Positions 1,415 through 18,146 of a stretch of DNA of 29,066 bases are shown here, in pieces. The translations under genes and the position numbers were made by a program. The notes beneath the pieces were generated by a model. The model was not told where the DNA came from and did not search any database. It worked only from the letters and a program-made list of their open reading frames with translations. Source of the stretch: Bodo saltans. Taxonomy: Eukaryota > Euglenozoa > Kinetoplastea > Eubodonida > Bodonidae. The stretch spans positions 1 to 29,066 of the forward strand of contig CYKH01000335.1 in the NCBI GenBank assembly GCA_001460835.1, read 5' to 3'. How positions within the stretch are numbered: the stretch's first letter is position 1; each line of letters starts with the position of its first letter.

Positions 1415-4025
1415 ATGTCCAACCCCAACCACGGTTACGACGAGGAAGATGAGGAGGATCTCATGCCCTTCGAGGGTATTGATAAGGCGGCCGTGCTTCA
1501 GCAATGCCGCGACTTTAGCGCGGTCAATATTAATGTTGAGGCCTGCATTGAGCACATGACTAAGATTCTGTATCTGCTCTCCACCGGCACCACCTTCACC
1601 CCCATCGAGGCCACAGATATCTTCTTTGGCTCCACGAAATTGTTCCAGACCGACGACCAGAAGCTTCGCCGCCTCTTGTTTGTATTTTTGAAGGAGCTTA
1701 GCGGTATTGCAGAGCAAGTGTTTATTGCGTCGTCGTCGCTGGTGAAGGACATTAGTTCCAACAACGATGTCAATCGATGCAACGCTATTCGCACCCTCCG
1801 CAAGGTGACCGACGTGACAATGATTGGTCCGATGGAGCGCTACCTGAAGCAGGCCGTTGTAGACAAACAGAACAGCGTTGTCAGTGCGGCTATCGTGACT
1901 GGTATTCATTTGGCGTACGCCCAGCCTGAGATGGTGAAGCGATGGGGTACCGAAGTCAACGAGGCGCTCAAGAATCGTGGTAGCAAGGTTCAGTACCACG
2001 CCCTGGCACTTCTTCACAAGCTCCGTAAAAATGATCGCGTCTCTGTTCTCAAGCTTGTCCAACAGGCTCAGACTGGCCCCATGGACTGGCCCCATCCGCA
2101 GCGCACTGGCACTTTGCCTTCTCATCAAGATGTGCACGGAGTTGATGCAAGAAGACTTTGGCCAATCGTTGGACTTGTACAAGTTCGTCACCAACATGAC
2201 GCACCACTCCAGCGACAGTGTCGTCTTCGAGGCTGCAAAGGCTATTTGCTCGCTGAAGAACATCACTGCGAAAGAAGTCTCTCCTGCTGTTCTTGTGATC
2301 GGCTTGTACTTGACATCACACAAGCCCGTGCTCCGCTTTGCAGCGATCCGACTCCTCAACCGCGTGGCTACCGTACACCCCTCCGCGGTTGCAACGCTGA
2401 ACGCTGATATCGAGTCACTTGTGTCCGACCCCAACCGTAATGTTGCGACCCTGGCCATCACCACTCTCCTCAAGACTGGTACCGAGTTCAGCATTGACAG
2501 ACTGGTGAAGCAGCTGACGGGCAACCTTGGCGACCTTAGCGACGAGTTCAAGATTGTGATTGTCGACTCCATGCGTGTGCTGAATGCAAAGTTCCCTGCC
2601 AAGTACTCAATCCTTGTCGAATTCCTTTCTAGCGCACTGACCCCGTCTGAAGGCGGCGGTGAGTTCAAGAAAGCCGTTGTGGAGACCATGGTGGCGATCT
2701 CGCAGAGCAACCCTGCCGCGAAGGAGGCCGTGTTGGTCCGCCTCGCCGAGTTTATCGAAGATTGCGAGTACCCCTTCCTGATCAAGCAAGTCCTTACCCT
2801 TATCGGCGAGGAGGGCCCCACCACTAGCAACCCTAAGAGGTTTGTTCGTTACATTTACAACCACGTTCAGCTTGAGTCCCCAGTAGTTCGCGCCGTTGCG
2901 GTGTCGACCCTCGCAAAATTTGCAGCCCAAGTTCCCGCACTTCGCACATCCATCGCGACTTTATTCCAGCGCACCATGAACGACCCAGATGATGAGGTTC
3001 GCGATCGTGCGGTGTTCTTTTACAAGCTCTTTACGCTCGGCGACGAGATTGCCATTCGCACGTTAGTCACCGAAGTGTCATCAGCAGTCATTCGCTCTCG
3101 TGGTGCTGCCCCGAAGCGTGCTGCCGCAATGTCGGGTGCTGAGGACACTGAGGCAGCTGTGGCTGCAGTAGCGGCGGCGACAGGTGCCGCTGCAAGCCCA
3201 AGCACAGGTAGCGCATCCTCTTCCGATCTTAGCATCGCTGTCCTTGCTGGCCGTGACAAACTTCGTCGCATCGCTCAGTTTAAGGAATTCGGAGAGCCCT
3301 CACGCACCCTCGACCCCCTTCCCCTGACCGAGGCTGACAACGAGTACGTTGTCTCGGTGCTGAAGCATCAGTTCGCCGAGCACGTTGTGTTCCAATTTAA
3401 GGTGACCAACACCATGGATAACATCAGCCTTGAGAACATCAACATCGACGCCGACCTTAGTGAGCTGGAGGTAGAGCCCCTCTTCGCCGTGCCCATTTCC
3501 CGAGTGGAGCCAGGATCGACTGAGTACGGATACATCGCCGCACGTTACGAGGCTGGTCAGTTCCCCAGCGGTGCGGTGAAGTGTGCATTCCGGTTCCGCA
3601 TGAAGGAGGGCGATGACGAGCCCTCTGAGGAGGAGGAGTACCCAATCGAGGAGTTCGCTGTCAATGTGTCGGATTTCATCTTACCACTCGACCTTGGCAA
3701 CGGTTTTGAGTCTCAGTGGACCGCCTTCCGCGAAGAGGAGACAATGGACACTTATGCTCTTACGTCGATGCGCAACTTGACGGTTGCGGCGCAGGAGCTC
3801 ATTGACTTCTACGGCATGTGGGTCGAGGGAGGCAAGGTGGAGAAGATCACGACCAAATCACACGTTGTGAACATGTGCGGCGTTCTCCCTGATGCAAAGA
3901 AGACTGTCATCTTGATCAGCGGGAAGGTATTTGTCGCGGCGGATAACAGTGTTGCTCTGCAGCTGGCGATTCGTGGTGGAAATGCTGAGGTGCGTGCATT
4001 CCTTTCGGCTGCCCTGGTGTCGTAG
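1415..4025 (+). CDS. Coatomer gamma subunit (gamma-COP), frame broken by a 13-nt tandem duplication
   Basis: Gamma-COP is a large subunit of the COPI coat that buds retrograde vesicles from the Golgi. The first part (1415 to about 2082) matches the start of the family: an acidic N-terminus, then adaptin-type alpha-solenoid repeats including LRKVTD and YHALALLHKLRKNDR. The second part continues one frame over from about 2096 with LLIKMCTELM and runs to the stop at 4023-4025. It covers the rest of the solenoid (to about residue 555), an Ala/Ser-rich linker (about 558-605), and the gamma-COP appendage (about 630-865, including FKVTNTMDN). The break lies exactly at two direct copies of a 12-mer (2071-2082 and 2084-2095). 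Removing 13 nt gives one 865-residue protein, close to the usual length of about 870. The gene is normally essential, so an assembly error or a non-functional allele is more likely than true loss. Read as given, the first frame ends at 2407. Confidence 0.93.
2071..2095 (+). repeat. 13-nt tandem duplication that breaks gamma-COP
   Basis: The 12-mer gactggccccat occurs at 2071-2082 and again at 2084-2095, separated by one G. The period of 13 shifts the frame. With only one copy, the upstream residues QTGP run directly into IRSALALC in the downstream frame. Confidence 0.9.
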
Positions 4026-11126: not shown

Positions 11127-11236
11127 CCCTCTGTCTCTCATACTTTTTCTCTCTGTCTTTGTTGCCCCCACGTACACGGATTTTGTCTTTACAATGAATA
11201 CGAATGCGTAGCTCCCTGTTCCTTTAAAAAACAACG

Positions 11237-11323: not shown

Positions 11324-12982
11324 ATGGCGACCTGCCCTGCTTCCAGCGATGCTCTCATCAACCCGAGCAACCACAATGGAGTGATTATTGCAGAAAGCGC
11401 TACTCAGATCACACTCCGCGTTTTGTGGCCCAAAGAGCTTCTGGTGGATTTAGATTTCGCAGCGGTGCTATTCGATGAACACGGCACCGCAACTGAACTC
11501 GTGTCCTACTCTTCACCCACATCTAGCGATGCTGCTCGCACAGTGTCCCTCGTCACAGGAGACCAGAGGTCTGGCGATATCGGTGAGGCCATCGTTGTTC
11601 GCCTTGCGAACCTCTCCTCGAGCGTCGATGCCATTGGCTTCCTCGTCACGTGCCCTGATACGAAACGATCCATGACGGAGGTTCACGAGCTGCACGTGTT
11701 GGCGACTGCAGAAGGCACTTTCCAATCCTCAGAGGAGAGTGATCCTTCGCCCTCCTCTTGGAAGTACACGTGTGCACCACGTGACGATGCTGTTGAACTT
11801 CGTTTACGTGACCCCATTCACATGCGTATGGTCGCGTCGATTCAGCGAAATCGTGCGGACAAGAACAAAAAGAAATCCCTTCGGAAAAGTGGCGATGAAG
11901 TGACTGGTGATTGGGTGCTGCGAGTGCATCGAAACCTTGTCCACGGGCTCTCCGCACGTGACGCCGCCGCGACGATGGCCGTGGTGCTTGGCTACTGCCA
12001 CACTGCGTCAGAAGCGCATGTGTCCTTCCCATTTCCACTTTATCTTGAGAAGGATCAATGCTTTCACATCCGCGAGGAAACTGCTGCTGCTGATGGTGCG
12101 AGAGGACGTCGACCACGTCACGTGTCGCACAACGAAGGCAGCAACGGTGCGTTTCTCACCGTCGGTGTTGGGTGGGATATTCCCCCAGCAATTTCGGCAG
12201 CCAACGACGAGAATTCATCGGCGAGCGACATTGATCTTTCATGTGTGGCCATTAACGTTCACGAACGGAATGCGCAGAGTCAAATCAAAGATATGCTATT
12301 CTGGGGGAAGATCACTGGCCTCAACGGTGCCATCACACATTCCGGTGACAATACCGATGGTGAGGGCGACGGCCTCGATGAGTTTTTGACGATAGACTTG
12401 TCCCGCATTCCACAGAACGTCACGACGCTTGCATTTATAGTTTCCAGCTACAACAAGCCGACCCTTGATGCGGCGAGGAATATTTTATTTTCCGTTGCAC
12501 GAAACAGCGATGAGGGCGTGCTGGTGCTAATGGAGGGCATCGGTAGTGGTGGGAGTTACACCAGCTTCATCCCATGTGTGCTGGAGAGGCATGAGGAGGA
12601 GCTGGGAGGACCCTTTACGTCGTCGAATGCGCCATCAGCGTCACGTTGGAGAATTCGTGTGCTCTCGTTGCCTGTGGTTGGCCACAGTGTTTCCGACGAA
12701 GCGACACGTGCGTCCGTCTGCGCCACTGTAATAGCAGCAAGCGGCAGAGGTGGCCAAGCTGCACCCCGCGCACTCCATATTAGGCGTTCTGCAGAAGTTG
12801 CTCAGCAACGACGACAACGAAATGCTTTGAGTTCTCAACAATCCCTAAGAGATGGAGATGCACCTGCGAGGAGTTCGCACACTCCTGGTGCTGACTATGA
12901 GCCCTCCAAACTAGTCATCTGGATTTGTGTGGGTTTCATCGTTGTGGTGACAGCATACGTGTTGAGGGGTATGGGACTATGA
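11324..12982 (+). CDS. Tail-anchored protein with two TerD-like domains
   Basis: TerD domains are calcium-binding beta-sandwich modules best known from bacterial tellurite and stress-response operons; they are rare in eukaryotes. The 552-residue protein has a diverged first copy (about 20-130: LLVDLDFAAVLFDEHG, then GDQRSGDIGEAIVVRL) and a clear second copy (about 278-395: FLTVGVGWDIPP, DIDLSCVAI, ITHSGDNTDGEGDGLDEFLT, DLSRIPQNVTTLAFIV). The acidic HSGDN and GDGLDE residues that hold calcium in the family are kept in the second copy only. A hydrophobic segment (about 530-546, LVIWICVGFIVVVTAYV) ends six residues before the C-terminus. This is the form of a tail-anchored protein with its bulk in the cytosol. 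No ter-operon partner is nearby. The role is unknown; calcium or stress sensing at a membrane is inference. Confidence 0.85.
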   Translation: MATCPASSDALINPSNHNGVIIAESATQITLRVLWPKELLVDLDFAAVLFDEHGTATELVSYSSPTSSDAARTVSLVTGDQRSGDIGEAIVVRLANLSSSVDAIGFLVTCPDTKRSMTEVHELHVLATAEGTFQSSEESDPSPSSWKYTCAPRDDAVELRLRDPIHMRMVASIQRNRADKNKKKSLRKSGDEVTGDWVLRVHRNLVHGLSARDAAATMAVVLGYCHTASEAHVSFPFPLYLEKDQCFHIREETAAADGARGRRPRHVSHNEGSNGAFLTVGVGWDIPPAISAANDENSSASDIDLSCVAINVHERNAQSQIKDMLFWGKITGLNGAITHSGDNTDGEGDGLDEFLTIDLSRIPQNVTTLAFIVSSYNKPTLDAARNILFSVARNSDEGVLVLMEGIGSGGSYTSFIPCVLERHEEELGGPFTSSNAPSASRWRIRVLSLPVVGHSVSDEATRASVCATVIAASGRGGQAAPRALHIRRSAEVAQQRRQRNALSSQQSLRDGDAPARSSHTPGADYEPSKLVIWICVGFIVVVTAYVLRGMGL

Positions 12983-13313: not shown

Positions 13314-16300
13314 ATGTCTGAACAAGGAGACGTCTTTGATACCTTATCAAGTCCCCAATCATCTGGACAAGCACCGCTTCTGCTAGATCGTTCTATTTTC
13401 ACTCCTTCTTCTTTTGCCGCACCTGTTCTCGTCAACGCGATATGTCAACGCGTGCTGATGTCTGTCCCAGTAGACACCAGTAACATGCGCGGAGGAAGTA
13501 ACTTCGGAGCAAGCACCTCACAGCAACACCAAGATGAGGTGCCTCAGGAGGTACATCAGAATATTGCTGGCCGGCTTGTCAAGACGCTTGAAGAGGCTGA
13601 GGCACAGCTTGCGCAGCTGTACGCTGAGGAACAGCGTGCAGTACGGCACGCCGAGGGTGATGCGCGTGCGATTGAAGCAAGCAAAAAGTCTCTCCTGAAT
13701 CAAATCCGCGTCGCGTTAAATGATGGCACCTCTCAGAGAATTCGAGGCATGGAGGACGCCATCGGGAACGCACTCACGTCCACAGTCGGGGTGGAGCAGC
13801 ATCTCAATCAATCGAATGCTCGAGTCACACGTGGCCGTGTCGTGTCGCTACTGCTCAAGTACTTTCAAATGTTTTCACACATTGACAGCAAACAGTTTGA
13901 AGGATTGTTAGAAAACTTATCACGAGCCCGTGCGGAGCAGCGGAAGAAGACAACCGACCAGTGGGCGAATGGGGAGGTGTCCTCTGTGGACCCAAAGTAT
14001 TACACCGTTTTCCAACGAGGAGTAGACCTCCAGCAATCACCCTCTAAGAAACAGTTAAAAAGCAAAGCGAATAAAAAGCGCAGGACGCTGAAAACGCCAG
14101 ACGACGATGAAGACGATGAAGACGAGGAGTCAGAAGAAGACAGCGACGATGACGACGTAAAAAGCAAAGCGAAGAAAAAGCGCAGGACGCTGAAAACGTC
14201 AGACGACGATGAAGACGATGAAGACGAGGAGTCAGAAGAAGACAGCGACGATGACGACGACGACGACGACGATGAGGACGACGAAGAACGCGCACGAATA
14301 AAAGCAATCGATGATGATATCCCCTCACCGGAGAATGCGACCGTCGCGTCCAACAAAGTCCCACTGCATCGTTTTGAAATGGTTGCCGTGAGTGGAGGCT
14401 TAGATCGACTGTTCGCACTGCGATACTACACTGAGGCTCAAGTCCCCTGGATGCTGAAACTGAGTGTGCTTAGCAGAGAACTCGCCGCAGTCGCCAACAA
14501 CGCGTCTAATATTGAGCGTTACTTGGAGTGGCTCAAGGAAGAGCTTGAAGAAGACTGCACGCACCTGATGCAATCATTCCGAGCTTTCTACGATGAAAAC
14601 GGAGAAGCCTCAGTGCACATGGCGTATGGAAAGCTTGAAGAAGACTGCACGCACCTGATGCAATCATTCCGAGCTTTCTACGATGAAAACGGAGAAGCCT
14701 CAGTGCACATGGCGTATGGAAAGAGCCTTTTGAAGACACTGGAGCTGAGCGGCAAGTTGTACGGGTCGTTGTGCGTTGCAGCGGCGGCGGCGGATGCCAA
14801 TAGCAGTGCCCAGGACGACGCCACGGCGCTGCTCGACTACGTGATCAAAAAGTCAGCACAGGACTTGGTGACAGAAATGCGCTCGTCGCACTCCCCTAAC
14901 GTGCCACCCGAGCAGCCTCCCCTTCCAGAGATTACACTGTCGACGCTGATGGCCTTCTTTGACGCCAAGACGAAGCCAGGGATTGTCTTGCTATACAATT
15001 TCCTAGAACAGCGTGTGAAGCGAGAGGCGCTGGTGGTGGAGTCTATTGTGGCGGGGTGCTTTGGTCGTGAGGAGCATAATGTGAATGTGAACGCGACGAG
15101 TGCCAAGGCGAAGCATACACCGTCGCTTTCAGGCGAGAGTCAACATCGGCGCACGATGTCGGGATCTTTGACGTCCATCGCTGCGGCCTCTACGACTGGT
15201 AAGAAAAGCTACATGCATGCGTCGGGTACAGGTGGCGGTATGGCGGCCTCGCTGGCGTCAACCGGCCTCACCGATGCGGGCGGCCGCCAAGCTCGACAAC
15301 AGTTACTCTACAAAATTATGGATCAAGTGCTACGACGCTACGTGACGGAATTGCAAAGTGCCGCCAATCAGCACTTTCAAACTCTCCTTACCCTTCTTGT
15401 TCGAGAACGCAGGCGGCGTTTCGCGGCGAGGCGTCCGGCACAACGCCTACGTTACCGGAAGCGAGTATCACAGTGCCGTCTTGAGATGCGTGATACACTT
15501 CTGAAACGGCGGAAGAACCTGCTTCTTAAACGATCCACAACAGAGCTGCAAATGATTTTTGATGTGATCCCGTCGTTGTTCCCTCATCAATCCGAGTATG
15601 TATCCGGGCGACAAGAGGTCAGCCTCCTCCAGCGATACATGCTTGCCATCGACGATACGTACCGACTCACTCTCCTCGTGTCCGCCGAGGTCAACGAGCC
15701 GTTTGATGTGAAACCTGACCAAAGAAGGCGCAGGAATACCTAGAGCGAATGGAGGAGGTGTGCCATCGTGTCTTGACCCTCACGCCTCCCGCTCAGGTAC
15801 CCATGTACATTGTCGATTTGCTTTCACTAGGGATTGAAGAAGTGGCAAAGTACCTCAACGCGGAGGCCGATAAAATGCTGAAGTTTGTGAAGGACGAGCG
15901 TAGTGCGTGGAATAAGAAGCCACACCCTCGTGGTGAGGAGGCTTGGATTAGCCCGTCGCCGGTCGAACGGCAATTGTGTGCCGCCAGGATGATTATCTTT
16001 GCCCAGACCACCATCATGCGTCTCCACGAATACTGCGCGTCGATTGCACTCCAAGCACATCTGGGAGCACTGTCGGCAGATGGACTTCTGGACTTTGCGT
16101 CGCGCTCAGACTTTTTGAAATTAGATGAGACGTTAGAGGAGCTAATCAACCTTGCCGCGGCGGCAATTGTGACGAAAAGCCTCGTGATTTTGTATTACTC
16201 GCAGAACAAACACGACTTCCGGCCAAAAGAAGAGCGTAAGAAAAAAGGCGACGATGATGGTGCGTCCGTGATGGTGGTGCGCCCCTCGACTCGTGCTTGT

Positions 16301-16960
16301 GGTTTGTTTTGTCAGTATGTCAACTTTCAGCTTCTTCAGATACAACCGTTGTTGGATGTCTCTTGCGGACAAATGTGGAGGCAGACGGTGGACGAGGTTC
16401 ACGTCCCCCCAGGAGGCCTAGGAGGAAGGCGAGGCGGGGATGGAGGCGCCACTCCGCCCCGTAGCCCAGCCCTTGGACCCTCAGCAGCCCCAACGGAATT
16501 ACGCGTGGGAGGGGACATCGATCGCACGTTGACCTCACTCCGAAAGAAAAGTGATGCGGTGACCAAAGTCAAGAAGATGTCTTTGCAGCAGCTGATTTTT
16601 GGTGACGGTGGTCCCACGTCCCTCGTACGGTCGATCGGTGTGCCACTGTACCGTGGTCTGTCTGCGCATCTTCGTCAGATGCGGTGCAACGAAGCAGGTG
16701 CCTTTGTGTACAAACAAGACGTCACCGAGTATGCTCGTGCATTACGCCCATTGATGATTGCACCGGGACTGGACTCGATTGTTGTGGAACGACTCATGGC
16801 GGTGCTGAAAGACACGAGTGGGTTGCTGCTTGCTGCCGTGGAGAACATCAAGGCGGTGAAGGGTGCTGGAATCCTTGGGGAGTTGATGAGCAACGAAGAA
16901 AAGGTTGCGTATCTTCAAATGCGTGATGATCTGCGTGAGGGATTTTCTCAAGGTCGATAG
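13314..16960 (+). CDS. Exocyst subunit Sec10-like, with a 1-nt frameshift near 15721
   Basis: Sec10 (EXOC5) is part of the exocyst, which tethers secretory vesicles to the plasma membrane; in kinetoplastids this site would be the flagellar pocket. The N-terminal part has the family's coiled-coil rod and a match to the region before the first helical bundle (LNQSNARVTRGR, LLKYFQMF, about 195-225). The C-terminal part carries the clearest matches: HDFRPKEE (about 966), the ACGLFCQYV stretch, GVPLYRGLSAHL, DVTEYARAL (about 1135), ENIKAV and LQMRDDLREG at the end. The upstream frame stops at 15743. The downstream frame continues from AAG AAG GCG CAG GAA TAC just before that stop, and one more A in the AAA at 15721-15723 would join them into about 1215 residues. 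This is long for the family (700-900), partly from acidic and duplicated insertions. The identification rests on scattered motifs. Confidence 0.8.
14056..14259 (+). repeat. Two 102-nt tandem units coding for basic-acidic blocks in Sec10
   Basis: Units at 14056-14157 and 14158-14259 are nearly identical and in frame (34 codons). Each encodes a basic stretch (KKRRTLKT) followed by an Asp/Glu-rich stretch. The second unit runs on into a longer GAC/GAT tract (to about 14286). The differences are few, so the copies look recent. The minus-strand reading frames here (Ser-rich or Arg/His-rich) are shadows of this repeat. Confidence 0.9.
14544..14723 (+). repeat. Exact 90-nt in-frame tandem duplication in Sec10
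   Basis: Positions 14544-14633 and 14634-14723 are identical base for base. Each copy encodes 30 residues beginning LEEDCTHLMQSFRAFYDENG and ending MAYGK. The duplication keeps the frame. A perfect copy with no synonymous change means a very recent event or an assembly artefact. Confidence 0.95.
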
Positions 16961-17049
16961 TCGAATTCCGCTGTTGAAGACCTTCAATAGACAACATCAA
17001 CCAACAAATAACTGTTACATGTCTCGATACTATTCTCTGTGGATTGCAA

Positions 17050-17081
17050 TTGTCTCATTCTCTCTCATAAAATTCATTAAG
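17050..17081 (+). promoter_or_regulatory. Candidate spliced-leader acceptor of the metacaspase gene
   Basis: A tract with TTGTCTCATTCTCTCTCAT is followed by AG at 17080-17081. The next ATG is 17103, which fixes the start. The hydrophobic stretch encoded upstream (from 17019) is then simply the pyrimidine tract read as codons. Confidence 0.5.
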
Positions 17082-17102
17082 ATACCTCAAATCAAGTGTG
17101 TG

Positions 17103-18146
17103 ATGGATCAAGTTGCTGCAGAGCCACGTGTTCGAGCACTGTTCATCGGTGTCAATGGAACGAACAGTAAGTTGTGTGGGTGCGGCACCGATGTAACTGC
17201 GATGCTTGTGGACCTTCGCGTCCAATGTGCGTTTCAAGATATGCATTTTGAGAATCGTATCTTAGTGGATGATTCACTCTTGCCCGGGAAAATGCCAACG
17301 AAGGGAAATATCAATGAAGGCATCAATTGGTTGGTGCATGACCAACGCCGTGGAGATGCGCTATTCTTCTTCTACTCAGGTCATGGGAGGCAAGTGCTCA
17401 GTCTGAACGGTAATTTTGAAAAAGACGGTTTGGACGAGGCCATTTGCGCCCTTGACGGCGACATCAAGGATGATGACTTATTCAAACTTCTTGCTGGTCG
17501 AGTCCATGCTGGTGTACGCTTGACGTGTGTATTCGACTGCTGCCACAGTGGTACCATTATGGACCTGCCGTTCGAGCTCGTTGGACACTCTGGGCATGCG
17601 GCACGCGATCGACTGCACATGAGCGGCATTCGCAGTAATAATTTCACTGCCGGCGATGTTGTGGTGTTTTCAGCGTGCGCAGACAGTCAAACGAGCGTTG
17701 AAGTTCCGAATACTGCCGATTTTGGAAACGGTAATCGAGGCGCAGGAGGTGCTGCAACACAAGCATTTCTGTGGGCATTGGCGAACGCTTATGGTCTACC
17801 GTTGGGCGAGGTGGTCCTAAAGATGCGCGCTTTTCTGGCTAAGAAGGGATACGAGCAGGTTCCGCAGCTGTCAAGCTCGAGGCGTATTGATTTGAGTATG
17901 CCATTCTCACTGTTTGGTCCTCTTGAAGTCGAACAGCCGCTGGTGCATTACGTTCCACAGCAGTACGCATCGCAGTTCCTCTCAACCAACAAGGCCCGCT
18001 TCAAGGCCCCATACACCAGCCCTGTTGCCGCCAGCCGCATCCGTTTCGGTGCCCGACATGAAGGCCCTCGGCAGCTACAAGGTGACGTTCCACAGCAGCC
18101 AGGGTACCAAGGCGCTCATCGACAATCTCGCAGCAGTTCGTCGTAG
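17103..18146 (+). CDS. Metacaspase (clan CD cysteine peptidase)
   Basis: Metacaspases cut after Arg or Lys and usually need calcium; in kinetoplastids they take part in recycling, cell-cycle or stress responses. The protein (347 residues as read) starts directly with the p20 fold: VRALFIGVNGT (10-20), the catalytic His H94 in YSGHGRQV, the DGLDEAI pocket loop (108-114), and the catalytic Cys C147 in FDCCHSG. The second part has FSACADSQTS and a GAATQAFLWAL helix. No Pro/Gln-rich prodomain is present, so this is a short form. Codons up to about 18045 favour G/C in third position; after that a different frame (from GAC ATG AAG GCC at about 18055) looks more coding-like, so the last 30 residues may result from a frameshift. 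Confidence 0.92.
   Translation: MDQVAAEPRVRALFIGVNGTNSKLCGCGTDVTAMLVDLRVQCAFQDMHFENRILVDDSLLPGKMPTKGNINEGINWLVHDQRRGDALFFFYSGHGRQVLSLNGNFEKDGLDEAICALDGDIKDDDLFKLLAGRVHAGVRLTCVFDCCHSGTIMDLPFELVGHSGHAARDRLHMSGIRSNNFTAGDVVVFSACADSQTSVEVPNTADFGNGNRGAGGAATQAFLWALANAYGLPLGEVVLKMRAFLAKKGYEQVPQLSSSRRIDLSMPFSLFGPLEVEQPLVHYVPQQYASQFLSTNKARFKAPYTSPVAASRIRFGARHEGPRQLQGDVPQQPGYQGAHRQSRSSSS

Follow-up and report, generated by a model that had tools for sequence, protein, structure and literature searches.

A predicted tail-anchored protein with two TerD domains in the kinetoplastid Bodo saltans

A 29,066 nucleotide stretch of Bodo saltans DNA (contig CYKH01000335.1, assembly GCA_001460835.1; the whole stretch is called the window below) carries on its plus strand a gene for a 552 amino acid (aa) protein, whose open reading frame (ORF) was recovered at exactly the coordinates given for it in an initial annotation of the sequence. 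By sequence and structure model, the protein consists of a pair of TerD domains followed by a spacer predicted to be helical and a single hydrophobic helix at the C-terminus. The reading that is tentatively favored, at a little under an even chance, is that it is a tail-anchored, calcium-responsive adaptor whose domains would face the cytosol, with both topology and calcium binding predicted from the sequence and the model. Its parts are as follows.

11324..12982, plus strand: coding sequence, 552 aa, with two TerD domains and a C-terminal hydrophobic segment (ORF list, translation, Pfam).
11366..12010, plus strand: TerD domain 1, about aa 15-229, with a degenerate calcium motif (profile, shuffles, fold).
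12152..12718, plus strand: TerD domain 2, about aa 277-465 (Pfam, profile, fold).
12227..12235, plus strand: DxD of domain 2, D302 and D304 (motif alignment).
12338..12382, plus strand: HSGDNTDGEGDGLDE motif of domain 2, aa 339-353, in which L351 replaces the usual Asp (motif alignment).
12761..12853, plus strand: predicted helical spacer, aa 480-510, with block mean predicted local distance difference test (pLDDT) scores of 60-89 (structure model).
12911..12964, plus strand: hydrophobic tail segment, aa 530-547 (hydropathy, model).
12965..12979, plus strand: five-residue C-terminal tail RGMGL (translation).

Searched against Pfam-A at E values up to 10, the whole protein matches a single family, TerD (PF02342; E 2.4e-23, 83 bits, in two stretches; curated cut-off 25.3 bits). 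The C-terminal part (aa 246-552) alone scores 63.3 bits. Scored with a custom profile built from 168 TerD domains of the bacterial, plasmid and phage loci that were fetched, aa 27-125 reach 32.0 bits and aa 277-426 reach 91.2 bits; for aa 1-255 the score is 35.3 bits, against a best of 8.3 among 2,000 shuffles. The Pfam, profile and shuffle scores thus uphold the earlier proposal of two TerD-like domains of which the first is diverged, and by sequence domain 1 is a degenerate TerD domain. Among solved structures, phmmer finds two TerD proteins, 3ibz (E 7.4e-10, aa 277-403) and 2kxt (E 8.8e-10, aa 280-377). Fold comparison of the models finds the TerD β-sandwich, and the standout matches comprise TerD proteins of solved structure, the SCP2 chain 9a6r_B and, for both domains, a radial spoke chain from Chlamydomonas. 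TerD structure is C2-like; a better match to a C2 family, which had been raised as a possible objection, did not materialize, as no C2 family matched in Pfam at E up to 10 with either the whole protein or its separate halves.

The residues expected to bind calcium are unevenly preserved. Domain 2 keeps D302/D304, H339-N343 (HSGDN) and E347-G350, followed by L351-D352-E353, so that it departs from the DxD/HSGDN/GEGDGDDE pattern at one Asp only; the initial claim that the second domain keeps its calcium residues therefore stands, as a near-complete motif with L351 the exception. Domain 1 keeps D42/D44 and GDQ (aa 79-81), has lost the GEGDG loop, and does not carry the motif as a whole.

The C-terminal segment at aa 530-547 consists of 18 mostly apolar residues flanked by K529 and R548, and reaches a Kyte-Doolittle 19-residue mean of 2.43, a value attained by 6 of 10,000 shuffles of the last 43 residues and 16 of 2,000 shuffles of the whole protein. 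Windows ending before about aa 508 have a maximum of 1.54, and the first 48 residues, with a maximum of 0.85, contain no signal-like segment by hydropathy. Among 15 plus-strand ORFs of the window that were compared, this one alone exceeds 1.5 in its last 43 residues (γ-COP reaches 1.47). By hydropathy, then, the protein has the single C-terminal segment, the tail of under about 30 residues and the missing N-terminal signal of a tail-anchored protein, and the earlier proposal of a C-terminal membrane anchor gains a supported hydrophobic segment, the anchor itself being predicted. The hydrophobic end could instead be a glycosylphosphatidylinositol (GPI)-type signal or a buried helix, given that hydropathy and the model are the two lines of support for an anchor; this is quite improbable, as a GPI protein needs an N-terminal signal-like segment, which is not seen, and the apolar run between its two basic flanks is modeled as a confident isolated helix.

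If the tail is an anchor, the C-terminal helix would be inserted post-translationally into an internal membrane, which would leave both TerD domains facing the cytosol. A first guess at that membrane is the endoplasmic reticulum (ER) or some other secretory-system membrane, because the tail is highly hydrophobic and has a short end with one basic residue. The DxD, GDN and DE residues of domain 2 would bind calcium, and binding would switch the domain's contact with a lipid surface or a protein partner; domain 1, with most of its motif lost, would be a fixed scaffold for a partner, so that a rise in calcium might lead the protein to gather that partner at one membrane. The setting would be a lineage whose other TerD proteins locate to the flagellum attachment zone (FAZ). 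The calcium-dependent membrane sensor of the initial annotation is a hypothesis of the same kind, suggested by the sequence. A more specific version, a calcium-gated tether based on TerD and not on C2, in which the degenerate domain holds a partner, the intact domain meets calcium and either a membrane or a partner, and both are held at one organelle by the tail, is unlikely; it would resemble synaptotagmin-like tethers, with a fold related instead to bacterial stress proteins. Were it true, such a tether would be one branch of an expanded kinetoplastid TerD family and may serve membrane contacts near the flagellum.

The sequence collections compared were this genome, PDB chains, prokaryotes, phages, viruses and plasmids. 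Within the genome the only full-length match to the window protein is itself, and relatives align with it over short stretches at 31-37% identity. At least five stretches in at least four genes score over the PF02342 cut-off, namely C664, C631 (two domains), the window gene and C845, and a sixth stretch (C421; 15.7 bits) falls below it. The C631 gene (L008:4810-6867) lies directly after calreticulin and encodes a 685 aa protein with two TerD domains; its strongest hydropathy windows fall at aa 155-161, away from the C-terminus, and its C-terminal region (aa 453-685) has no family assignment. One match to the window protein precedes the first ATG of the C664 gene without leaving its open frame and reads HGGDRRDGAASGIDEAI (L007:3293-3457); it gives a sub-threshold TerD score (15.5 bits, E 0.012, profile positions 70-112), and the other two frames across it are interrupted by stops. 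By its sequence C664 appears to include a portion of a first, degenerate TerD domain whose 5′ part is broken or unseen, and if this piece is real, the two-domain layout is present in three of the four TerD genes.

TerD proteins are already known from related parasites. According to PMC10953051, Trypanosoma brucei FAZ28 and FAZ30 both have a TerD domain, and Leishmania mexicana FAZ28/30 is placed at the cell-body attachment zone, with a shorter FLABP signal in the null mutant. Entries in PMC3814921 report TerD for LtaP31.3020 of L. tarentolae and for Tb927.4.5000/Tb927.8.7420 of T. brucei, and for LtaP31.3020 they list an ER signal peptide and a single transmembrane segment that one of two methods predicted; the T. 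brucei pair is described in PMC2212663 as a C2 calcium/lipid-binding region. Calreticulin of T. brucei is given in PMC2797082 as Tb927.4.5010/Tb927.8.7410, and the consecutive gene numbers suggest that calreticulin and the TerD pair adjoin. Because C631 follows calreticulin in B. saltans and the T. brucei pair is numbered next to it, C631 is likely the orthologue of Tb927.4.5000/Tb927.8.7420. FAZ28/FAZ30 may be the same genes as this pair. Calreticulin was not found by Pfam among the 15 window ORFs scanned, so that the window gene lacks the neighbor that marks an orthologue of the pair, and it is probably a different member of the family.

These parasite proteins, together with Chlamydomonas radial spoke protein 1 (RSP1; 7jrj chain F, 7jtk chain A), contradict the earlier statement that clear eukaryotic TerD proteins occur chiefly in Dictyostelium, whose TerD genes capA/capB are listed as a candidate transfer in PMC3188802 and are compared here by description; like the window protein they are eukaryotic TerD proteins. 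The window protein is accordingly an unusual member of a known family, not wholly new. Since LtaP31.3020 has a predicted transmembrane segment as well as an ER signal peptide, kinetoplastid TerD proteins linked to a membrane have a precedent as well; the window protein shares with it a TerD domain and one such segment, and differs in apparently having no signal peptide. No description of a tail-anchored TerD protein was found in literature searches of open-licence papers, in which LtaP31.3020 is the nearest case, and what sets this member of a small kinetoplastid TerD family apart is that a predicted tail anchor accompanies two TerD domains.

Like the window protein, RSP1 is eukaryotic and, by profile as well as fold alignment, has the TerD fold in two regions, but its sequence similarity is much weaker (22.5-35.9 bits from TerD profiles searched against it), it is 814 aa long and it is part of the axoneme. 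With the FAZ proteins it suggests the strongest functional rival to a calcium-responsive adaptor, a structural cytoskeletal or flagellar protein in which the TerD domains would be inert β-sandwich blocks, as by analogy they may be in RSP1, and the anchor would dock the protein beside the flagellum. This is rather unlikely: domain 2 keeps most of its calcium-motif residues, which an inert block would not need, and phmmer, run with the window protein and admitting E values up to 10, found the two bacterial TerD proteins and not RSP1.

Several points weigh against the adaptor. L351 sits where an 18-row alignment (A3) has a nearly invariant Asp. Alone, aa 1-255 score 22.4 bits (E 9.2e-5), slightly under the Pfam cut-off; domain 1 is poor in the full-length model (block means 25-54 over aa 1-230), and the alignment used for its own model included TerD rows, so that the fold does not count as separate evidence from the sequence match. 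The tail-anchor call comes from hydropathy and the model and not from a trained tail-anchor predictor, and the adaptor role as a whole is read from sequence and model. Finally, C631 is the probable counterpart of the FAZ proteins and of LtaP31.3020, whose location may therefore not carry over to the window protein.

Compared with the bacterial TerD family (TerD, TerZ and SCP2-type proteins; 3ibz, 2kxt, 2qz7, 2qng), the window protein has the same profile match, β-sandwich, DxD and HSGDN, and it differs in its hydrophobic tail, in L351 for Asp and in having no ter neighbors among those found. A C-terminal hydrophobic tail is present in none of 142 sampled bacterial TerD ORFs, which bears out the earlier statement that such an anchor is atypical of the bacterial forms. 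A degenerate first and canonical second domain, on the other hand, is common there (37 of 62 sampled bacterial double ORFs), and because such pairs are ordinary in the bacterial sample, a eukaryotic fusion of two TerD domains need not be invoked. The protein might also act as a stress protein in the bacterial manner (redox, metal or envelope stress) that is merely fixed to a membrane. Bacterial genes annotated TerD and TerZ are among the matches, and a Streptomyces coelicolor TerD-domain gene is cited in PMC8123226 in connection with calcium homeostasis and redox adaptation. This is nonetheless unlikely, as no ter family (terB, terC or others) was found by Pfam among the 15 window ORFs scanned, and TerD domains, common as they are in bacteria, have there a poorly defined role and a poorly understood biochemistry.

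Acquisition from bacteria, as the initial annotation proposed, is plausible, but the tree, which contains TerD domains of this genome and of bacteria and no other eukaryotic TerD, is long-branched and does not demonstrate a transfer. Domain 1 falls in the group of degenerate domains (99/92) on a long branch (3.19), and scores 21.9 bits against a profile of canonical single domains and 19.3 bits against one of degenerate N-terminal domains (best of 300 shuffles 14.9); direct descent from bacterial double-domain proteins was rejected in view of that branch and because the degenerate-domain profile is not favored. GDQRSG was also tested for resemblance to the second domain of TerA, and that comparison failed (1.3 bits, best shuffle 2.7). 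For window domain 2 and C845 the tree program gave a warning that long branches meet. Grouping the genome's six domains (p 0.091), or five of them (p 0.355), in a single clade is not rejected, and the tests do not tell one origin from several. The kinetoplastid proteins could thus descend from an older eukaryotic pool, with RSP1 and capA/capB, and not from a kinetoplastid-specific transfer. This is doubtful, though it carries appreciable weight: TerD-type domains are found in an alga, in Dictyostelium (PMC3188802, as a candidate transfer) and in kinetoplastids, and the clade tests allow it, while the genome's five less degenerate domains score 60-106 bits against the canonical-single-domain profile and RSP1 only 22.5-35.9, a rough comparison made with different profiles, and the tree holds no other eukaryotic TerD. 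The related objection that TerD might be widespread in kinetoplastids with no bacterial link is right as to presence in other kinetoplastids and wrong as to the link, which is clear.

A eukaryote with four TerD genes, of which one is probably membrane-fixed and one matches a known trypanosome gene, is well suited to learning whether TerD works as a calcium-operated module for membranes or scaffolds, and it links two scattered observations, the TerD proteins of the trypanosomatid FAZ and the TerD-like fold of an algal radial spoke protein.

Most long ORFs of the window lie on the plus strand. Past the stop of the gene upstream of the TerD gene is a pyrimidine-rich tract that appears compatible with a trans-splice acceptor region:

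11127..11169, plus strand: pyrimidine-rich tract (sequence reading).

Neighbors matched by Pfam include γ-COP, a MutY-like glycosylase, a weak SET domain (E 0.044), part of Sec10, a caspase-fold protease, a methyltransferase and an ion channel. Codon usage of the TerD ORF correlates with that of the other 14 ORFs at 0.705 in frame and at 0.223 and -0.036 in the other frames. Bacterial contamination was considered and judged unlikely because the gene sits among eukaryotic genes and shares their codon usage. The genome also contains KMP-11 (E 1.1e-51) and flagellar-rod genes (E 9.0e-105), which we take to be kinetoplastid markers, and its content agrees with a kinetoplastid. An Rfam search of the window at gathering thresholds gave no matches.

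Some irregularities of the assembly and of neighboring genes were also seen. The C664 TerD gene contains an exact 108-base tandem duplication that repeats 36 TerD-core residues (L007:3814-4029) and may be an assembly artefact; upstream of it on the same strand is a small C2-domain protein (L007:2753-3223, E 7.9e-9). In the window, γ-COP is broken across two plus-strand frames (1415-2407 and 2031-4025), the first ORF matching Adaptin_N positions 5-192 and the second positions 192-522 and the appendage domains, through either an assembly frameshift or a real break. The Sec10 match covers the C-terminal part of the profile only (452-629 of 637) in a 403-aa plus-strand ORF (15749-16960) that is preceded in a different frame by an 809-aa ORF (13314-15743, plus strand), possibly another frame break. 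The end of the Sec10 ORF overlaps by 35 bases the ORF of the caspase-fold protease (16926-18146), which is presumably of the metacaspase type.
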